Below, one piece after another: positions 2,051 to 63,916 of a DNA stretch of 64,000 nt. The notes under the pieces were generated by a model. That model worked only from the letters and a program-made list of their open reading frames with translations. It ran no database searches and had not been told where the DNA came from. The position numbers and the translations under genes were made by a program. The number at the start of each line of letters is the position of its first letter. Positions within the stretch are counted from its first letter, which is position 1. Location: NCBI RefSeq assembly GCF_000220525.1, contig NZ_AFPK01000014.1:1-64000 (forward strand), read 5' to 3'. This DNA comes from Ochrovirga pacifica. GTDB taxonomy: Bacteria; Bacteroidota; Bacteroidia; Flavobacteriales; Flavobacteriaceae.

Positions 2051-3568
2051 TTACACCAAAGGAAATCTTGTCATCTCTTCTGGTTGCTCTACACCAATCA
2101 ATTTTAATACAGTTGGGGCTACATCTCCTAACACTCCGTCTTTAATTTCTTTGATTTCTTCATCTATCAAAATCATAGGCACTGGATTGGTTGTGTGCGC
2201 TGTATGAGGTGATCCATCAGGGTTCATCATCGTTTCACAGTTTCCGTGATCGGCAATTAATAGAGTAGAGTACCCATGCTTCAATCCTGTTTCTATTACT
2301 TCTTTAGCACAAGCATCAACAGCTTCACAAGCTTTAATCGCTGCATCCATATCACCTGTGTGTCCTACCATGTCTCCATTGGCAAAGTTCAAACACACAA
2401 AGTCTGCTTCTTCTTTGGCCAAATCTTCACACAAAGCATCTTTCAATTCGTAAGCACTCATCTCAGGCTTTAAATCATAAGTAGCAACTTTTGGCGAGTT
2501 TCTTAAAATACGAGACTCTCCTTCAAACGGCTCTTCTTGTCCTCCAGAAAAGAAAAATGTCACGTGAGGGTACTTTTCTGTCTCTGCAATACGGATTTGT
2601 TTTTTACCTGCCTTAGATAAAACCTCACCAATCGTATTTTTAATATTGTCGTTGTTGTAAATCACATTGATTCCCTTAAACGTTTCATCGTATAAAGTAA
2701 TGGTTGTAAAGTACAAGTCTAATTTTTTAGTGTCTTGCTCAGGGAAATCGTTTTGAGACAACATGTTTGTCAACTCTCTACCTCTATCTGTTCTGTAGTT
2801 AAAGAAAATTACAGCATCTCCTTCTTCTATTTTCGCTTTTGGGTTACCATCAGCATCGGCCATAATTACAGGCTTAATAAACTCATCAGTAACTCCAGCT
2901 TCGTAGTTTTCTTTTAGTGTAGCAACCGCATCTGTAGACAATGTTCCTTCTGCTTTAACGACAGCATCATACGCTAATTTTACACGTTCCCAACGGTTAT
3001 CTCTATCCATTGCGTAGTAACGTCCTGTCATACTTGCCAACTCCCCAGTTGTAGCTGCCATGTATTCTTGAATCTCGTTGATAAAATACGCTCCAGATTT
3101 AGGATCTGTATCTCTACCATCGGTAAAAGCGTGTAAGTATAAATCTTCTATTTCATTTTCCTTAGCTACATCTAACAAGCCTTTAATATGATCTATGTGT
3201 GCATGAATCCCCCCATTAGAAACCAATCCTAATAAGTGTACTTTTTTGTTATTTTCTTTAGCATATTTGTACGTATCTACCAATACTTTTTCTTGTCCTA
3301 AAGTTTTATCTCTAACCGCCATGTTAATTTTTGTTAGGTTTTGGTACACAATTCTACCAGCCCCTAAGTTCATGTGTCCCACTTCAGAGTTTCCCATTTG
3401 TCCATCAGGCAAGCCAACAAACTCTCCATCGGTACGCAATTGTGCATTCGGATATTTGTTATACAAAGAATCTATGTAAGAAGTGTTTGCGTTATAAACT
3501 GCCGATACTTTTGGATCTTGGGTAATTCCCCATCCATCAAGAATCATTAAGATGACTTTTTTGTTCAT
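2051..3568 (-). CDS. gpmI: 2,3-bisphosphoglycerate-independent phosphoglycerate mutase
   Basis: Interconverts 3- and 2-phosphoglycerate in glycolysis and gluconeogenesis through a phosphoserine intermediate, using Mn2+. At 505 aa it has family length. The N-terminal metal-binding motif ILDGWG (Asp11) and the catalytic serine in GQMGNSEVGH (Ser61) are intact, and the C-terminal alkaline-phosphatase-type metal motifs ADHGNCE and HTAHTTNPVP are present. The gene is monocistronic: it ends at the bidirectional terminator and has a TATATTTG -10 element upstream of its ATG. It is a cytoplasmic housekeeping enzyme with no unusual residues. Confidence 0.97.
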   Translation of the reverse strand: MNKKVILMILDGWGITQDPKVSAVYNANTSYIDSLYNKYPNAQLRTDGEFVGLPDGQMGNSEVGHMNLGAGRIVYQNLTKINMAVRDKTLGQEKVLVDTYKYAKENNKKVHLLGLVSNGGIHAHIDHIKGLLDVAKENEIEDLYLHAFTDGRDTDPKSGAYFINEIQEYMAATTGELASMTGRYYAMDRDNRWERVKLAYDAVVKAEGTLSTDAVATLKENYEAGVTDEFIKPVIMADADGNPKAKIEEGDAVIFFNYRTDRGRELTNMLSQNDFPEQDTKKLDLYFTTITLYDETFKGINVIYNNDNIKNTIGEVLSKAGKKQIRIAETEKYPHVTFFFSGGQEEPFEGESRILRNSPKVATYDLKPEMSAYELKDALCEDLAKEEADFVCLNFANGDMVGHTGDMDAAIKACEAVDACAKEVIETGLKHGYSTLLIADHGNCETMMNPDGSPHTAHTTNPVPMILIDEEIKEIKDGVLGDVAPTVLKLIGVEQPEEMTRFPLV

Positions 3569-3756: not shown

Positions 3757-3935
3757 AGGGCACTTCCAAAGGTCGGGCTTTCATTACTCGCTTTTTGTTT
3801 TGTTTTTAGGATTCAGGAGTTAAGGAGTAGAGTAGTTAAGAATCTCAGAAACTCCTTTGACTTCTTAACTACTCATATTCTTAAATTCTAAAAACAAAAC
3901 AAAAGAGCTCAAACAAACCATTCAATCCCTAGTGC
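3757..3935. repeat. Folded repeat-like element in the gpmI-acs gap
   Basis: Nested inverted repeats fill much of this 465-bp gap. About 20-bp near-perfect outer arms (3790-3809 against 3888-3908, T-rich against A-rich) enclose an 11-bp perfect inner pair GAGTAGTTAAG/CTTAACTACTC (3830-3840, 3864-3874) and AGGAGT/ACTCCT pairs. At the ends, AGGGCACT (3757-3764) and CCCTAGTGC (3927-3935) can pair, partly as GCACT/AGTGC and partly as AGGG/CCCT. No protein is convincing here. From memory, unverified, similar conserved flanks around a variable hairpin recur in flavobacterial genomes. It could be a non-autonomous repeat or a structured RNA. The rest of the gap (3603-3756, 3936-4033) shows nothing I recognise. 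Confidence 0.5.
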
Positions 3936-4033
3936 ATTCACAATAAAAAACAAATTCTTCTAATTGATTTGAAATCTTTTTTGAATTTGACTGATATTCT
4001 GCTAAATTCATAACCTCAAAAAAATGAATTTCC

Positions 4034-5932
4034 ATGAAAATAAAATCCTACAGACAATACAAAGAAGATTATAAAAATAGCATTCAAAATCCCGAAGTTT
4101 TTTGGGCCGACATTGCCCATCAATTTACTTGGAGAAAAAAATGGGACAAGGTGTTAGAGGCAGATTTTTCCAAACCCGAAGTCAAATGGTTTTTAGGAGG
4201 TAAACTGAACATTACCGAAAACTGCTTGGATCGACATTTAGAAAAACAAGGAAACAAAACTGCCATTATTTGGGAGCCTAATAACCCTAAGGAAGAATCT
4301 AGACATATTACGTACAGGCAATTGTATTACAAAGTATCCGCATTTGCCAATGTGCTTAAAAACAAAGGAATTCAAAAAGGAGATCGCGTGTGTTTGTACA
4401 TGCCCATGATTCCAGAACTAGCCATTGCTATGTTGGCCTGTGCAAGAATTGGAGCGGTGCACTCTATCGTTTTTGCAGGTTTTTCAGCATCTGCCTTAGC
4501 CAGTAGAATCAACGATTCTGAATGTAAATTATTAATTACTGCTAACGAAGTTTACAGAGGTACCAAACCCATCAACCTAAAAGCTGTTTGTGATGAAGCC
4601 TTAAAAAGCACTCCATGTATAGAAAATGTAATTGTATACCGCAGAACAGTAGAACCTACAGCAATGCAAGAAGGTAGAGATACGTTCTGGTTTGACGAAT
4701 TGCAAAAAATAGAAGATGATTACTGCCCTGCTGTAGATATGGATAGCGAGGATCTGTTATTTATCTTATATACTTCTGGCTCTACAGGAACTCCCAAAGG
4801 AATGGTACATACTTGTGGAGGCTATATGGTAGGAAGTACGTATACGTTCCAAAATGTGTTCCAAGCCAAAAAAGGCGATGTATATTGGTGTACTGCCGAC
4901 ATTGGTTGGATTACAGGACACTCGTACATTATTTACGGTCCTTTGGCTAGTGGAGCAACCACAGTCATGTTCGAAGGAGTACCTTCGTACCCAGACTATG
5001 GACGTTTTTGGGAAATTGTAGACAAACTAAAAGTCACCCACTTTTACACCGCTCCTACCGCCATAAGAGCCTTGGCAAAACAGCCTTTGCACTTGGTAGA
5101 AAAACACAAACTGAATAGTTTAAAAGTTTTAGGATCGGTAGGCGAACCCATCAACGAAGAAGCCTGGCACTGGTACAACGACCATATTGGAAAAGGAACC
5201 TGCCCTATTGTAGATACTTGGTGGCAAACCGAAACCGGAGCTATTATGATTGCTGCTATGGCAGGAATTACTCCGTTACGTCCTACTTTTGCCACACAAC
5301 CTTTGCCAGGAGTACAACCTGTTTTGTTAGATGAAAATGGAAAAGAAGTAACAGAGTCACCCGCAGAAGGGAGTTTGGCCATTAAAGGAGCATGGCCTAG
5401 TATGGCACGTACCATTTACGGAAATCATCAACGTTATAAAGACACCTATTTTTCTGCTTTTCCTGGCTATTATTTTTCTGGTGATGGGGCTTATAGAGAT
5501 GCTATGGGGAACTACAGAATTACAGGACGTATGGACGATGTGATTATTGTATCTGGACATAATTTGGGAACAGCACCCATAGAAAATGTAATTAACGAAC
5601 ACGAAGATATTGTAGAATGTGCCATTGTTGGCTTTCCGCACGACATTAAAGGAAATGCCTTGTACGCCTATGTAACCAAATACAACGATGTTACCACTGA
5701 TGAAGATGTATTGAGAAAAGAAATTAACGCTTTGATTTCTAAAACCATTGGAGCGATTGCTAAGTTGGATAAAATTCAGTTCGTAAGCGGATTGCCAAAA
5801 ACACGTTCGGGTAAAATTATGAGACGTATTTTAAGAAAAATTGCTGCTAACGATGCCGAAAACTTAGGAGATATTTCTACACTGTTAAACCCCGAAGTGG
5901 TAGAAGAAATAAAAGAAAATGTGATTTTGTAA
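4034..5932 (+). CDS. acs: Acetyl-CoA synthetase (AMP-forming)
   Basis: Activates acetate to acetyl-CoA through acetyl-AMP. The 632-aa protein has the family architecture: P-loop YTSGSTGTPKG (246-256), the acyl-pocket TWWQTETG motif (395-402), the hinge region SGDGAYRD (about 482) and the C-terminal LPKTRSGKIMRR with the catalytic, acetylation-prone lysine (Lys594). One departure stands out: the usual SGHR(L/M)GTAE reads SGHNLGTAPIE (507-517), so the arginine is Asn510. The tryptophans of TWWQTETG fit an acetate/propionate-sized pocket. The gene is monocistronic with a strong terminator after it. Confidence 0.93.
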   Translation: MKIKSYRQYKEDYKNSIQNPEVFWADIAHQFTWRKKWDKVLEADFSKPEVKWFLGGKLNITENCLDRHLEKQGNKTAIIWEPNNPKEESRHITYRQLYYKVSAFANVLKNKGIQKGDRVCLYMPMIPELAIAMLACARIGAVHSIVFAGFSASALASRINDSECKLLITANEVYRGTKPINLKAVCDEALKSTPCIENVIVYRRTVEPTAMQEGRDTFWFDELQKIEDDYCPAVDMDSEDLLFILYTSGSTGTPKGMVHTCGGYMVGSTYTFQNVFQAKKGDVYWCTADIGWITGHSYIIYGPLASGATTVMFEGVPSYPDYGRFWEIVDKLKVTHFYTAPTAIRALAKQPLHLVEKHKLNSLKVLGSVGEPINEEAWHWYNDHIGKGTCPIVDTWWQTETGAIMIAAMAGITPLRPTFATQPLPGVQPVLLDENGKEVTESPAEGSLAIKGAWPSMARTIYGNHQRYKDTYFSAFPGYYFSGDGAYRDAMGNYRITGRMDDVIIVSGHNLGTAPIENVINEHEDIVECAIVGFPHDIKGNALYAYVTKYNDVTTDEDVLRKEINALISKTIGAIAKLDKIQFVSGLPKTRSGKIMRRILRKIAANDAENLGDISTLLNPEVVEEIKENVIL

Positions 5933-39258: not shown

Positions 39259-39340
39259 TACCTAGGGCGGGAATCGAACCCGCACTTCCGAAGAAACTGG
39301 ATTTTGAATCCAGCGCGTCTACCAATTCCGCCACCTAGGC
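39259..39340 (-). tRNA. tRNA-Leu (anticodon CAA)
   Basis: On the minus strand a complete class II tRNA cloverleaf: acceptor GCCTAGG/CCTAGGT, D-arm with GGCGGAATTGGTAGACGC, anticodon stem CTGGA/TCCAG around loop TTCAAAA (anticodon CAA at plus positions 39304-39306, reads UUG), a variable arm containing TTCTTCGGAAG, and T-arm GGTTCGATTCC. The 3' CCA is not encoded. A TACATTTG element lies 18 nt upstream (39358-39365). Confidence 0.97.
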
Positions 39341-58012: not shown

Positions 58013-60328
58013 ATGAAAACTCTAATAGCCATCCTCATATCTCTATGCTGTTATACCGTATACGCACAAAAAAGCAAACTAACAGGTAAGGTAGAAAGTA
58101 ATGGCATACCTGTTTTGGCAACTGTTAATATTAAAGAAAACAACCTGACTACTGGTACCGAAATAGATGGAACATTTGCTATTGCTACTTCTCCTGGTAC
58201 CAAGACTTTAGAAATTTCGGCAATTGGTTACAAAACCTTAGAACTATCTGTTGTATTAAAAGAAGATCAAACCTTAGTTAAAAACATAGAACTAAAAGAA
58301 GATATTTTAGGACTAAACAAAGTTGTAGTAACTGCTACTAGAGGTTATCTAGACAGAAAAAAAGCCCCGGTAATTGTTACCGTGACCGATGCCAAAGTTT
58401 TGGAGGCTACCCAAGCAATTAGCCTATCTGAAGGGCTGAATTTTCAACCAGGCTTAAGAATGGAAACCAACTGTCAAAATTGTGGAACATCAGAAGTAAA
58501 GATGAATGGACTAAATGGCTCTTACAGTCAAATTTTAATTGACAGTCGACCTATTTTTAGTGCTCTTAACAGTGTTTACGGATTGGATCAAATTCCAGCA
58601 AATATCATCAAACAAATAGAAGTTGTACGTGGTGGAGGTTCTGCTTTGTACGGATCCAATGCCATTGCAGGAACCATCAACATTATTACCAAAGACCCTT
58701 TGGAAAATAGCTTTAGCATAGGAACTAATTTGGCACTGATTGATGGAAAATCAGAAGACAAAACATTGCTATTTAACGGAACTGTCATCAACAAAAATTT
58801 AGATACGGGAATTGCATTGTTTGGGATGAAAAGAGCTAGAGAGGCGTTTGATTATGACAACGATGGTTTTACTGAAATCACACAACTAGAAAACACTTCT
58901 TTTGGCCTAAAGGCTTTTACCAGACCTAACGACAGAAAAAAAATAACAGCAGAATTTAATGCGAATAACGAGTTTAGAAGAGGTGGTAACCAATTGAACC
59001 TACTGCCTTTTTTATCGGATGTTACTGAACAAATAGAATCTACCATTGTGTCTGGAGGGTTAACTTACGAATACTTAACCCCTTCTAAAAAAGACAATTA
59101 TTCTGTATATGCATCAACTTCTTTTTCTAAAAACAAAAACTTTTATGGAGGACTGGCAGGAAACCAAGCAACCGAAAGCAACATTGATGAAAGTATTGAA
59201 GGCTATGGAAATTCAGAAGATATTACTTTTGTAACTGGTGCACAATACGCACATAAGTTTGATCAGTTTTTAAACAACACAGGAACTTTTACAGGGGGGA
59301 TTGAATACAAATACAATGACATTGACGACCGAAAAGAAAACCCTGATTTTGAACCTATTTTACAAACAACACATTTAATAGGAGTATACGCACAACAAGA
59401 GTGGGTTGTAAACAACAACTTAAGAATTTTAGGAGGATTAAGAGCTGACAAACACAATTTGGTTAAGGAAAACATTATACTAAACCCTAGAGCCAATATT
59501 CTATACAACATTCATGAAAATTTACGTTGGCGATTTAGTTATGCCAAAGGCTTTAGAGCTCCTCAGATCTACGGAGAAGATGTACATGCCTCTTTAGCAG
59601 CAGGAGAAATTAGTAGAATTAGAAATGACGATGATTTAAAGTCGGAAACTTCGCACAGTCTGTTAACTTCGTTAGACTGGTCAAAAGAATTAAGTGAAGG
59701 TGATTTTTCATTAGTAACCGAAGCCTTTTACACCCAACTAAACGATGCTTTTGCTTTGGAACAAGGCCCTGAGACTGCTCCAGGTTCTAAAATTTTTGAA
59801 TGGATTCGAAGCAATTCTTCTGGAGCTAAAGTATACGGACTAAACATTGAAACAAAATACGCTCCCAACAAAAAATGGCTAGCTCAGGCAGGTGCCACCA
59901 TTCAGCGTGCTTTGTACGATGAAAAAGTTGCTTGGTCTGAAGAAGAACAAGATCAAGCTACAAGAGAATTTAACAAAACCCCTAATTTCTATGCTAATTT
60001 TGTGATTACACATGCTCCTATTAAAGAATTTCAAAACAACGTTTCTGGAGTTTTTACGAGCCCTATGCATGTACAACACCTAGCTGGATTTATTTCTAAT
60101 GATAAATTAGAAAAATCACCCAGCTTTTTTGAACTGAATTGGAAATCTTCTTATCAGTTTTACCTAAGCAATCATCAACATACTTATTTAGAGGTTTCAG
60201 CTGGAATTCAAAATATTTTTAATGCATATCAAAGCGATTTTGACCAAGGTGTAGATAGAGACGTTAGCTATATCTACGGACCTCAACGTCCAAGAACCGT
60301 TTTTGTGGGTTGCAAATTTGGATTGTAG
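58013..60328 (+). CDS. TonB-dependent outer-membrane receptor
   Basis: A 771-aa receptor. Signal peptide (1-18, ending TVYAQ), a carboxypeptidase-regulatory-like beta-sandwich (about 20-95), a TonB-dependent plug (LNKVVVTATRGYLDRKKAPV, cut here; IKQIEVVRGGGSALYGSNAIAGTINI shortened) and a 22-strand barrel ending in VGCKFGL. A CxxC-like pair (NCQNCG, near residue 155) sits in the plug. It is divergent from the MntR-ABC operon and shares the palindrome, which suggests uptake of manganese or another metal complex across the outer membrane. Ligand unknown; no terminator seen. Confidence 0.9.
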   Translation: MKTLIAILISLCCYTVYAQKSKLTGKVESNGIPVLATVNIKENNLTTGTEIDGTFAIATSPGTKTLEISAIGYKTLELSVVLKEDQTLVKNIELKEDILGLNKVVVTATRGYLDRKKAPVIVTVTDAKVLEATQAISLSEGLNFQPGLRMETNCQNCGTSEVKMNGLNGSYSQILIDSRPIFSALNSVYGLDQIPANIIKQIEVVRGGGSALYGSNAIAGTINIITKDPLENSFSIGTNLALIDGKSEDKTLLFNGTVINKNLDTGIALFGMKRAREAFDYDNDGFTEITQLENTSFGLKAFTRPNDRKKITAEFNANNEFRRGGNQLNLLPFLSDVTEQIESTIVSGGLTYEYLTPSKKDNYSVYASTSFSKNKNFYGGLAGNQATESNIDESIEGYGNSEDITFVTGAQYAHKFDQFLNNTGTFTGGIEYKYNDIDDRKENPDFEPILQTTHLIGVYAQQEWVVNNNLRILGGLRADKHNLVKENIILNPRANILYNIHENLRWRFSYAKGFRAPQIYGEDVHASLAAGEISRIRNDDDLKSETSHSLLTSLDWSKELSEGDFSLVTEAFYTQLNDAFALEQGPETAPGSKIFEWIRSNSSGAKVYGLNIETKYAPNKKWLAQAGATIQRALYDEKVAWSEEEQDQATREFNKTPNFYANFVITHAPIKEFQNNVSGVFTSPMHVQHLAGFISNDKLEKSPSFFELNWKSSYQFYLSNHQHTYLEVSAGIQNIFNAYQSDFDQGVDRDVSYIYGPQRPRTVFVGCKFGL

Positions 60329-63127: not shown

Positions 63128-63916
63128 ATGGAGACTCAAAAGATCGCAGAACATATTAGTACTTGGTTAAAAGATTACGCTAACAAAGCAGGAGTAAAAG
63201 GTTTTGTTGTAGGGGTTTCTGGTGGAATTGACTCTGCCGTAACATCTACTTTATGTGCCAGCACAGGAATGCCAACAGTTTGTGTAGAAATGCCTATACA
63301 TCAACATCCAGATCAGGTAAGCCGTGCTCAAGAACACATTGCTCAGCTAAAAAATCGTTTTAACAATGTATGTGATGAACGTGTAGACTTAACCCAAAGT
63401 TTTGAGACTTTTAAAAATGCCGTTCCTAATTCTGATAACGAAGCAATTTTGAATTTAACCTTAGCCAATACTAGAGCAAGATTGCGAATGACTACCTTAT
63501 ACTATATTGCAGGATTGCACAGCAGTTTGGTAGCAGGAACAGGAAATAAAGTAGAAGATTTTGGAGTTGGCTTTTACACTAAATACGGTGATGGTGGTGT
63601 AGACCTAAGCCCTATTGCAGATTTGGTAAAAAGCGAAGTATATGCCTTGGGAGCATATTTAAAAGTTCCAGCAGCAATCCAAAACGCAGCTCCTACAGAT
63701 GGTTTGTTTGGAGATAGTAGAACTGATGAAGATCAATTAGGTGCCAGTTATGACGAGCTAGAATGGGCCATGAAACAACAAGACCTTGGAGCAACGTCGG
63801 CAGATTTTATAGAGCGAGAAAAAGAAGTGTTTGATATTTATAGCAAACTCAACAAGGTCAATCAACATAAAATGCAACCAATCCCTGTTTGTGAAATTCC
63901 ACCTGAATGGAAATAA
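63128..63916 (+). CDS. nadE: NAD synthetase (ammonia-dependent)
   Basis: Amidates nicotinic acid adenine dinucleotide to NAD+. The 262-aa protein has only the synthetase domain: PP-loop VVGVSGGIDSAV, SLVAGTGNKVEDFGVGFYTK, GDGGVDLSPIADLVKSEVY and TDGLFGDSRTDEDQLG. No glutaminase (nitrilase) domain, so free ammonia is the expected nitrogen donor. The nadE-gldB-gldC neighbourhood is typical of flavobacteria. The remaining 84 bp to the window edge show no gene. Confidence 0.96.
   Translation: METQKIAEHISTWLKDYANKAGVKGFVVGVSGGIDSAVTSTLCASTGMPTVCVEMPIHQHPDQVSRAQEHIAQLKNRFNNVCDERVDLTQSFETFKNAVPNSDNEAILNLTLANTRARLRMTTLYYIAGLHSSLVAGTGNKVEDFGVGFYTKYGDGGVDLSPIADLVKSEVYALGAYLKVPAAIQNAAPTDGLFGDSRTDEDQLGASYDELEWAMKQQDLGATSADFIEREKEVFDIYSKLNKVNQHKMQPIPVCEIPPEWK

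Follow-up and report, generated by a model that had tools for sequence, protein, structure and literature searches.

A dispersed three-way-junction element in flavobacterial chromosomes, conjugative plasmids, and phages that may act as folded single-stranded DNA

The divergent gap between gpmI and acs in Ochrovirga pacifica holds one member of a dispersed, noncoding family whose copies fold into a nested three-way junction with an exchangeable hairpin head. Paired positions covary among the copies, wobble pairs prefer one strand, heads have been replaced at orthologous sites, and homologs occur in marine phages and in conjugative plasmids, where they lie in the leading region in a fixed orientation. 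On balance, we consider it probable, if not strongly so, that the element works as folded single-stranded DNA (ssDNA) at which priming or transcription starts. This reading is favored because the wobbles are strand-specific, the plasmid copies (those of F among them) sit in the leading region, and their orientation relative to the entering strand is fixed.

The copy between gpmI and acs and its flavobacterial relatives

The window, that is, the whole stretch of 64,000 nucleotides analyzed from contig NZ_AFPK01000014.1, carries gpmI at 2051-3568 on the minus strand and acs at 4034-5932 on the plus strand, and a sequence-only reading had proposed a nested-hairpin element between them. We confirmed this element at 3758-3935, almost exactly where it had been placed, and no frame of at least 80 amino acids overlaps the gap, in line with the claim that no open reading frame explains it. 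The copy is of type B, and the R1 covariance model (below), BLAST relatives, and the wobble pattern point to the minus strand as the probable folding strand; letters are given 5′ to 3′ on the plus strand.

The window copy is a nested three-way junction (P1, P2, and P3) bearing a variable hairpin (P4/P5). The outermost helix, P1, pairs GCACT (3760-3764) with AGTGC (3931-3935) and covaries in relatives. Within it lie the mini-hairpin P2 (CC-AAA-GG, 3766-3772), which is far longer in other copies, its first two pairs being near-invariant and the later ones varying, and P3, formed by GGG-C-T-T (3775-3780) and A-A-T-CCC (3924-3929), where C3778 faces T3926 in a mismatch that the family keeps along with the pairing of two positions here called X/Y. 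The type B module has a 5′ half, ATTACTCGC (3783-3791), and a 3′ half, GAGCTCAAACAAACCAT (3905-3921), the latter kept among type B copies; its positions 3783-3784 and 3920-3921 form P4a, the short helix that opens P4 and that covaries within types. P5 is predicted to comprise an outer arm (3792-3809 with 3888-3904) and an inner arm (GAGTAGTTAAGAA at 3830-3842, with 3862-3874). These correspond to near-perfect outer arms previously put at 3790-3809 and 3888-3908 and to a perfect inner arm previously counted as 11 bp, which measures 13 bp here.

The terminal segments described earlier, AGGGCACT (3757-3764) and CCCTAGTGC (3927-3935), are both present, but the pseudoknot-like arrangement suggested for them is unneeded: GCACT and AGTGC make up P1, and the partner of CCC is the GGG of TCGGGC (3775-3777), which places P3 inside P1 and rules the pseudoknot out. 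The plus strand folds at −59.3 kcal/mol (z −7.4) and the minus strand at −55.1 kcal/mol (z −4.8), and in each case none of 200 shuffles was as good. Rfam returned no match in the gap at curated cut-offs and, at a permissive cut-off, only sub-threshold matches to miRNA and snoRNA families of eukaryotes and to an sRNA of archaeal type. The sole curated RNA family match in the window was a tRNA gene at 39259-39340.

The sequence-only reading had taken the element to be dispersed and structured, with conserved flanks around a variable hairpin that recurs in flavobacteria, and this proved right: a second, diverged copy lies at G000:C18:2451-2557 in the same genome, relatives hold many more, and paired positions covary among them. 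Of its open choice of class (repeat, recombination site, or RNA) less remains, as the evidence favors folded ssDNA instead. The 12-mer GGTCGGGCTNTC occurs once in the genome of O. pacifica and in 61 of 100 genomes (one per genus), with the highest counts in G044 (83) and G033 (79). Because the reversed 12-mer also occurs (27 of 100 genomes, at most five per genome), single matches are partly chance; the 12-mer is missing from 39 of the 100 genomes searched, and the element therefore has no essential role. At the level of the phylum, the bare 12-mer was in 232 of 395 genomes, and we claim no phylum-wide count, as outside the family the reversed control was often equally high.

By eye, 26 of 30 loci (one per genome; the exceptions were L014, L016, L026, and L031) had a common layout, namely (T)GGGCGTTACC, a variable hairpin, GGTCGGGCTTTC, a module, a variable hairpin, a module, and CAATCCCTAACGC. 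The R1 model, built from 34 type B copies that were all flavobacterial and chromosomal, was used to search 12 genomes, and identified 114, 128, and 113 copies in three congeneric species, 25 to 57 in eight other genomes, and two in O. pacifica. One of these two had an E-value of at most 0.01, and the window copy had 0.75, a weak score that may come from its long P5. Additionally, a type B pattern matched at least 118 stretches in the species collection, and the genera among the 80 matches listed included Algibacter, Mesonia, Lutibacter, Polaribacter, Tamlana, and Wenyingzhuangia, with others.

Fold, folding strand, and exchange of hairpin heads

A finder that scores P1 and ignores P3 recovered 197 copies in 289 loci, versus three in reversed sequence. 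X/Y of P3 were Watson-Crick in 188 of these copies (TA 144, AT 29, GC 13, CG 2), and the C × T mismatch inside P3 was kept in 196. Among 296 copies chosen without reference to complementarity, X/Y were Watson-Crick in 276, and an exact partner of the P1 3′ strand lay within 45 nt upstream of the core in 241, against a shuffled mean of 123 and maximum of 137. For copies with an uncommon P1, the exact upstream partner was present in 65 of 107, versus a mean of 2.1 and a maximum of 7 in 1000 shuffles; about half of the 42 misses (21 among the 40 listed) end in AAGCC, come mostly from G033 and a congener, and typically have one A·C in P1.

In the alignment of 34 type B copies picked with the finder or a pattern, pairing holds in 97.8% of cells, compared with at most 53% for slid partners, and double changes affect 33 cells versus 6.7 in shuffled alignments (0 of 500). 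X/Y show no double change there (28 T-A, 6 other), most rows having come from a pattern in which X is set to T. P4a covaries in types A, A′, B, and D. The pairing and covariation counts of P1, P3, and P4a are the grounds on which we describe a nested P1-P2-P3 three-way junction with a variable head. Two candidates were rejected: a competing pair, GGGCTT/GAGCTC, placed by RNAalifold where P3 stands in type B, shows no covariation, and a 3′ extension, YYKGCYA within 18 nt (34 of 281, with 3 and 6 in controls), looks like a neighbor and is mostly from one genus.

Wobbles in P4a, read on the plus strand, comprised 12 A·C cells and no G·T, which are G·U or G·T on the minus strand, and those in P1 comprised 35 A·C (28 of them at one position) versus 5 G·T, related copies being counted more than once in these cells. 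Moreover, the minus strand gave the more stable fold in 158 of 197 copies, although both strands had a like GU share in predicted folds (8.2% plus, 7.6% minus), and Rfam matches to Flavo-1 RNA in the family loci run opposite to the plus orientation used here, that is, on the minus strand. From these we infer that the minus strand folds. Chromosomal orientation is weakly tied to GC skew: in flavobacterial chromosomes, the folded strand was the G-rich strand in 36 cases versus 20 (p 0.044, with orthologues that are not independent), and in single genomes the bias was 16 of 23 loci in G033 (p 0.09) and 8 of 13 in G044 (p 0.58). If the G-rich strand is the lagging-strand template, the tendency is in the direction to be expected of a site that is used when ssDNA is exposed.

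With respect to genes, two of 107 copies (from two genera) lay mostly within simple ORF calls. Of the 103 copies that could be classed, 37 lay in convergent gaps (16 expected), 13 in divergent gaps (26 expected), and 30 and 23 in the two co-directional classes (30 and 31 expected), and the median distance was 29 bp to the left gene and 113 bp to the right. Three syntenic contigs of one genus held 19, 18, and 11 copies, with none in reversed controls, and some orthologous sites were occupied in one species and vacant in another. Across these three stretches (1.13 Mb) no gene-bearing or split copies were seen, the leftovers being degenerate copies or apparent chance words.

At several orthologous sites the junction was retained and the head differed. 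Specifically, G044:C2:150880 is type A and its G124 orthologue type D, and both have the uncommon P1 GCGCT/AGCGC; G044:C2:237187 is type D and its G124 counterpart type A, and both have the minority P3 pair A-T; and the third site of L085 bears heads E, D, B, and A across different species. Against 86 pooled copies from that genus, the G124 type D head was 96% identical to non-orthologous heads over all 54 nt, five further heads of the eight tested had partial non-orthologous matches of 92 to 100%, the G044 type A head (150880) reached at best 88% over 50 of 110 nt, and the G124 type A head at 308686 had no match in the 86-copy pool. Heads thus appear to have been copied between loci with the junction staying put, donors having been found for part of the cases, and such replacement prompts one to ask whether gene conversion operates through ssDNA. 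Some copies are of long standing: one sits, in both G033 and G115, between genes read by eye as thiC and thiE, and L018 and L021 have flanks that, again by eye, resemble those of the thiC-thiE copy.

Further repeats were seen beside or within copies. A second dispersed repeat, GGAGAGGTTCGTTTAACG ... TATACACNTTGTT, often directly follows the element in the genus of G044 (G044:C2:247483, 257042, 271788, and two more on the minus strand, with equivalents in G117 and G124), and the P5 loops of many copies (L173, L174, and others) hold the palindrome CCCGATAGCTATCGGG and repeats of the GTCATTGCGAGG type.

Relatives on conjugative plasmids and in phages

A 77-nt phage copy used as a blastn query matched 3685 plasmid records, with a query coverage of 80% or more in 134, and an 84-nt copy from an E. 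coli plasmid matched 1530, with that coverage in 586. Of these 1530 records, 1353 were conjugative, a raw share. Searched with R1, 18 sources from plasmids and phages yielded 14 matches (E 4e-7 to 0.007), comprising plasmids L588 (1), L589 (4), L593 (2), L594, L595 (2), and L599 and phage loci L187, L191, and L540. At E ≤ 1 the model found nothing in nine of the 18, including L590, L592, L596, L597, and L600, which have blastn or pattern support. A pattern search of eleven plasmid loci gave 11 matches, all in plus orientation and six of them not the copy by which the locus had been oriented; of these 11, 8 have a Watson-Crick X/Y and 7 an exact P1, with two of the failures wrongly anchored.

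Ten plasmid neighborhoods were read (pAsa5 was dropped, and the Rubrobacter plasmid was without informative genes). In nine, early genes lay on the plus strand of the element, including ssb, ardA, psiB, ccgA, and genes for ParB-like, methylase, antirestriction, TrfB-related, and DUF905 proteins, and the tenth had hypothetical proteins only. SprT and stb genes, where present, were on the strand opposite to the early genes, and transfer genes were 3′ of the element in all four neighborhoods that showed them (L588, L594, L597, and L600).

In plasmid F, R1 identified two copies of 82 nt each, at 58091-58172 (E 1.3e-6) and 63479-63560 (E 0.0013), the E-values being rough. From the first copy, ssb (58643) follows at a distance of 470 bp, and 5.4 kb separates the starts of the two copies. 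According to PMC9849209, Frpo2 is upstream of ssbF and some 5 kb from Frpo1, the downstream fusions tested lacked early expression when Frpo1 and Frpo2 were missing, and the T-strand is the template for the leading genes tested, ygfA being the sole exception. The T-strand templates the leading genes and early genes are on the plus strand of the element, which makes the entering strand the element's minus strand, in agreement with the folding strand picked out by the wobbles. Matched by published description, both F copies appear to fit the places of Frpo2 and Frpo1. Of two other papers, one gives Frpo a length of 328 bp and places its −10 and −35 boxes in a stem-loop (PMC8744291), and the other treats Frpo and ssi as one class (PMC11541004). 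The element may be a neighbor of the Frpo promoter hairpin, not the promoter itself.

Of 457 places in E. coli genomes, 418 were on plasmids and 39 were chromosomal. Among the matches listed, two of those 39 were the same CRISPR spacer, in arrays beside infA in two strains (L605 and L606), and it shares 27 identical nt with the form found on plasmids; a spacer against the plasmid form is what would be expected of a mark of invading DNA.

Turning to phages, an IMG/VR scan for the junction shell returned 31 stretches, and a variant-head pattern returned 74, of which 57 had an exact P1 partner and the upstream GGCTGT core, four more had the P1 partner alone, and 14 had a small-terminase-like motif within 2.5 kb. 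PHROGs placed the small terminase next to L187 and L191. The finder saw the element in 4 of 80 contigs with related terminases, so that, among the contigs listed, the pre-terminase slot is usually otherwise occupied. In many of the marine phage contigs L440-L519, a C/T-rich tract and TGTCAA/TTGACA words lie ahead of the slot that precedes the small terminase gene, and the slot itself is filled by this element or by hairpin structures unrelated to it. The type B subtype of the window had no exact match in viral contigs, Rfam reported nothing at cut-offs for 15 phage loci, and a type A consensus query drew a blank among phage records and matched a single plasmid record along just 27 nt.

With one phage copy as the query, blastn matched three phage records, two of them Microviridae, in both of which the listed genes are on the strand opposite to the match. 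Taking the Microviridae virion strand to be the coding strand, as we assume, the coding (virion) strand is therefore the minus strand of the element. R1 at E ≤ 1 found nothing in L544, the two Microviridae, or a phiX174 stretch, and the Microviridae relatives rest on blastn or pattern matches.

Candidate functions and comparison with known systems

These observations could be accommodated as follows. The minus strand, once single-stranded, would fold into the P1-P2-P3 junction with its exchangeable P4/P5 hairpin. On conjugative plasmids, F included, the element lies within the leading region and belongs to the strand that is first into the recipient, where the folded form would help RNA or primer synthesis to begin on ssDNA that is incoming or otherwise exposed, a role in single-strand initiation. 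Flavobacterial chromosomal copies, that of the window included, are dispersed relatives and may work on ssDNA at replication forks, or may alternatively be passengers spread through ssDNA-based exchange. A broader proposal, which we offer tentatively as a possibility that falls short of being probable, is that one ancient junction element lies behind Flavo-1, part of the F-like Frpo regions, the phage small-terminase sites, and possibly a complementary-strand start in some gokushoviruses, and that, after its entry into flavobacterial chromosomes, it increased in number to about a hundred ssDNA initiation sites, with heads swapped between loci and the junction staying. The compact fold and its invariants (P1-P3, C opposite T) provide a search handle for plasmids, phages, and chromosomes alike.

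Some family copies, the window copy excepted, are the Rfam orphan Flavo-1 RNA (RF01705). The core GGTCGGGCTNTC ... CNATCCCT is common to the window family and Flavo-1, type A and related copies match the model, and core and strand agree, but the Rfam model spans just the part from GGTCGGGC to CAATCCC, with P1 and P2 outside it. Flavo-1 matched 8 of 20 related loci, five at or above the 42-bit cut-off and none of the eight of type B, and the window copy was without a match at that cut-off and even at a permissive setting. Rfam counts were 0 in the genome of O. pacifica and 7 to 75 in eleven others. In the literature searched, Flavo-1 appears in a table of the original paper (PMC2864571), and a review counts it as one of the most abundant families of small RNA (PMC9029176). 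A printed link to Frpo, ssi, or repeats was not found within that scope. Under the folded-ssDNA reading, this abundant orphan Bacteroidetes "sRNA" family would gain a testable function and a tie to the early-gene ssDNA promoters of plasmids.

The Rfam filing as sRNA suggests instead a transcribed structured RNA, in which a minus-strand transcript folds as a cis element or sRNA. The fold, the covariation, and the purine-rich unpaired sites of the minus strand suit RNA, and the A·C-only wobbles would be G·U in it. A transcriptome study reports that several transcribed 5′ regions of F. psychrophilum overlap Flavo-1 matches, but also that matches lie sense, antisense, and outside transcribed regions (PMC9723704). 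The element also has no fixed gene partner, with convergent gaps in excess (37 versus 16) and divergent gaps depleted (13 versus 26), and the plasmid orientation makes the folded strand complementary to early mRNAs. We regard a role as RNA as unlikely.

Less likely still is a non-autonomous mobile repeat of MITE or REP-like kind, maintained only by transposition with a transposase in trans. High and uneven copy number, orthologous sites both filled and empty, and the lack of a gene within any copy in 1.13 Mb would suit such a repeat, but Y1/RAYT genes (14 of 28 genomes) do not track copy number: in G044 (83 12-mers) and G033 (79) just a single weak match turned up per genome, and there was none in G017, G039, G070, and G071 (12 to 16 12-mers). 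Furthermore, a word search found no element near 30 Y1 loci, two RAYTs examined closely carry other hairpins at their flanks, and no target duplication was seen, the flanks having diverged. RAYT mobilization, or membership among the REPs of a RAYT, was thus rejected, as copies neither flank RAYT genes nor follow their presence. The RAYT-like HUH genes seen (NHIH with YIHANP or YIHQNP) were at G000:C64:168013-168210 (L063) and in G057 (L051), with flanking hairpins GGTGCTCGAATCCCTTCGAGTACC and TACCGCCCGAATCCCTTCGGGTGGTA and the word AATCCCT in common with the element. Finally, a structural or terminator-like element at gene ends, serving termination or mRNA protection with the plasmid copies a separate use, is improbable: convergent gaps are enriched and the 5′ end lies near stop codons (medians of 29 bp for the left gene and 113 bp for the right), but the fold includes no T run, copies also occupy co-directional gaps and divergent ones such as that of the window, and promoter avoidance accounts for the same placement numbers.

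The folded-ssDNA reading sets the element beside several known systems. Flavo-1 is filed as an sRNA, whereas our results favor ssDNA and several types of head. For Frpo1 and Frpo2 of F, an 82-nt R1 copy is at each described place in the expected orientation. Frpo and ssi belong to the plasmid leading region on the transferred strand, where the plasmid relatives also lie; the window copy is instead chromosomal, between gpmI and acs. The phiX174 primosome assembly site, which we take to be an ssDNA region where complementary-strand synthesis starts, and the G4 complementary-strand origin annotated in its record are likewise regions of that kind, but identity with these priming sites was rejected: phiX174 2270-2410 and G4 3860-4060 have no P3 or three-way-junction shell and no R1 match. 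REP/BIME, ERIC, and BOX are dispersed, intergenic, hairpin-forming, modular repeats without genes. Unlike these, the present element has a conserved three-way junction with strict covariation, is common to plasmids and phages, and keeps a fixed strand orientation on plasmids.
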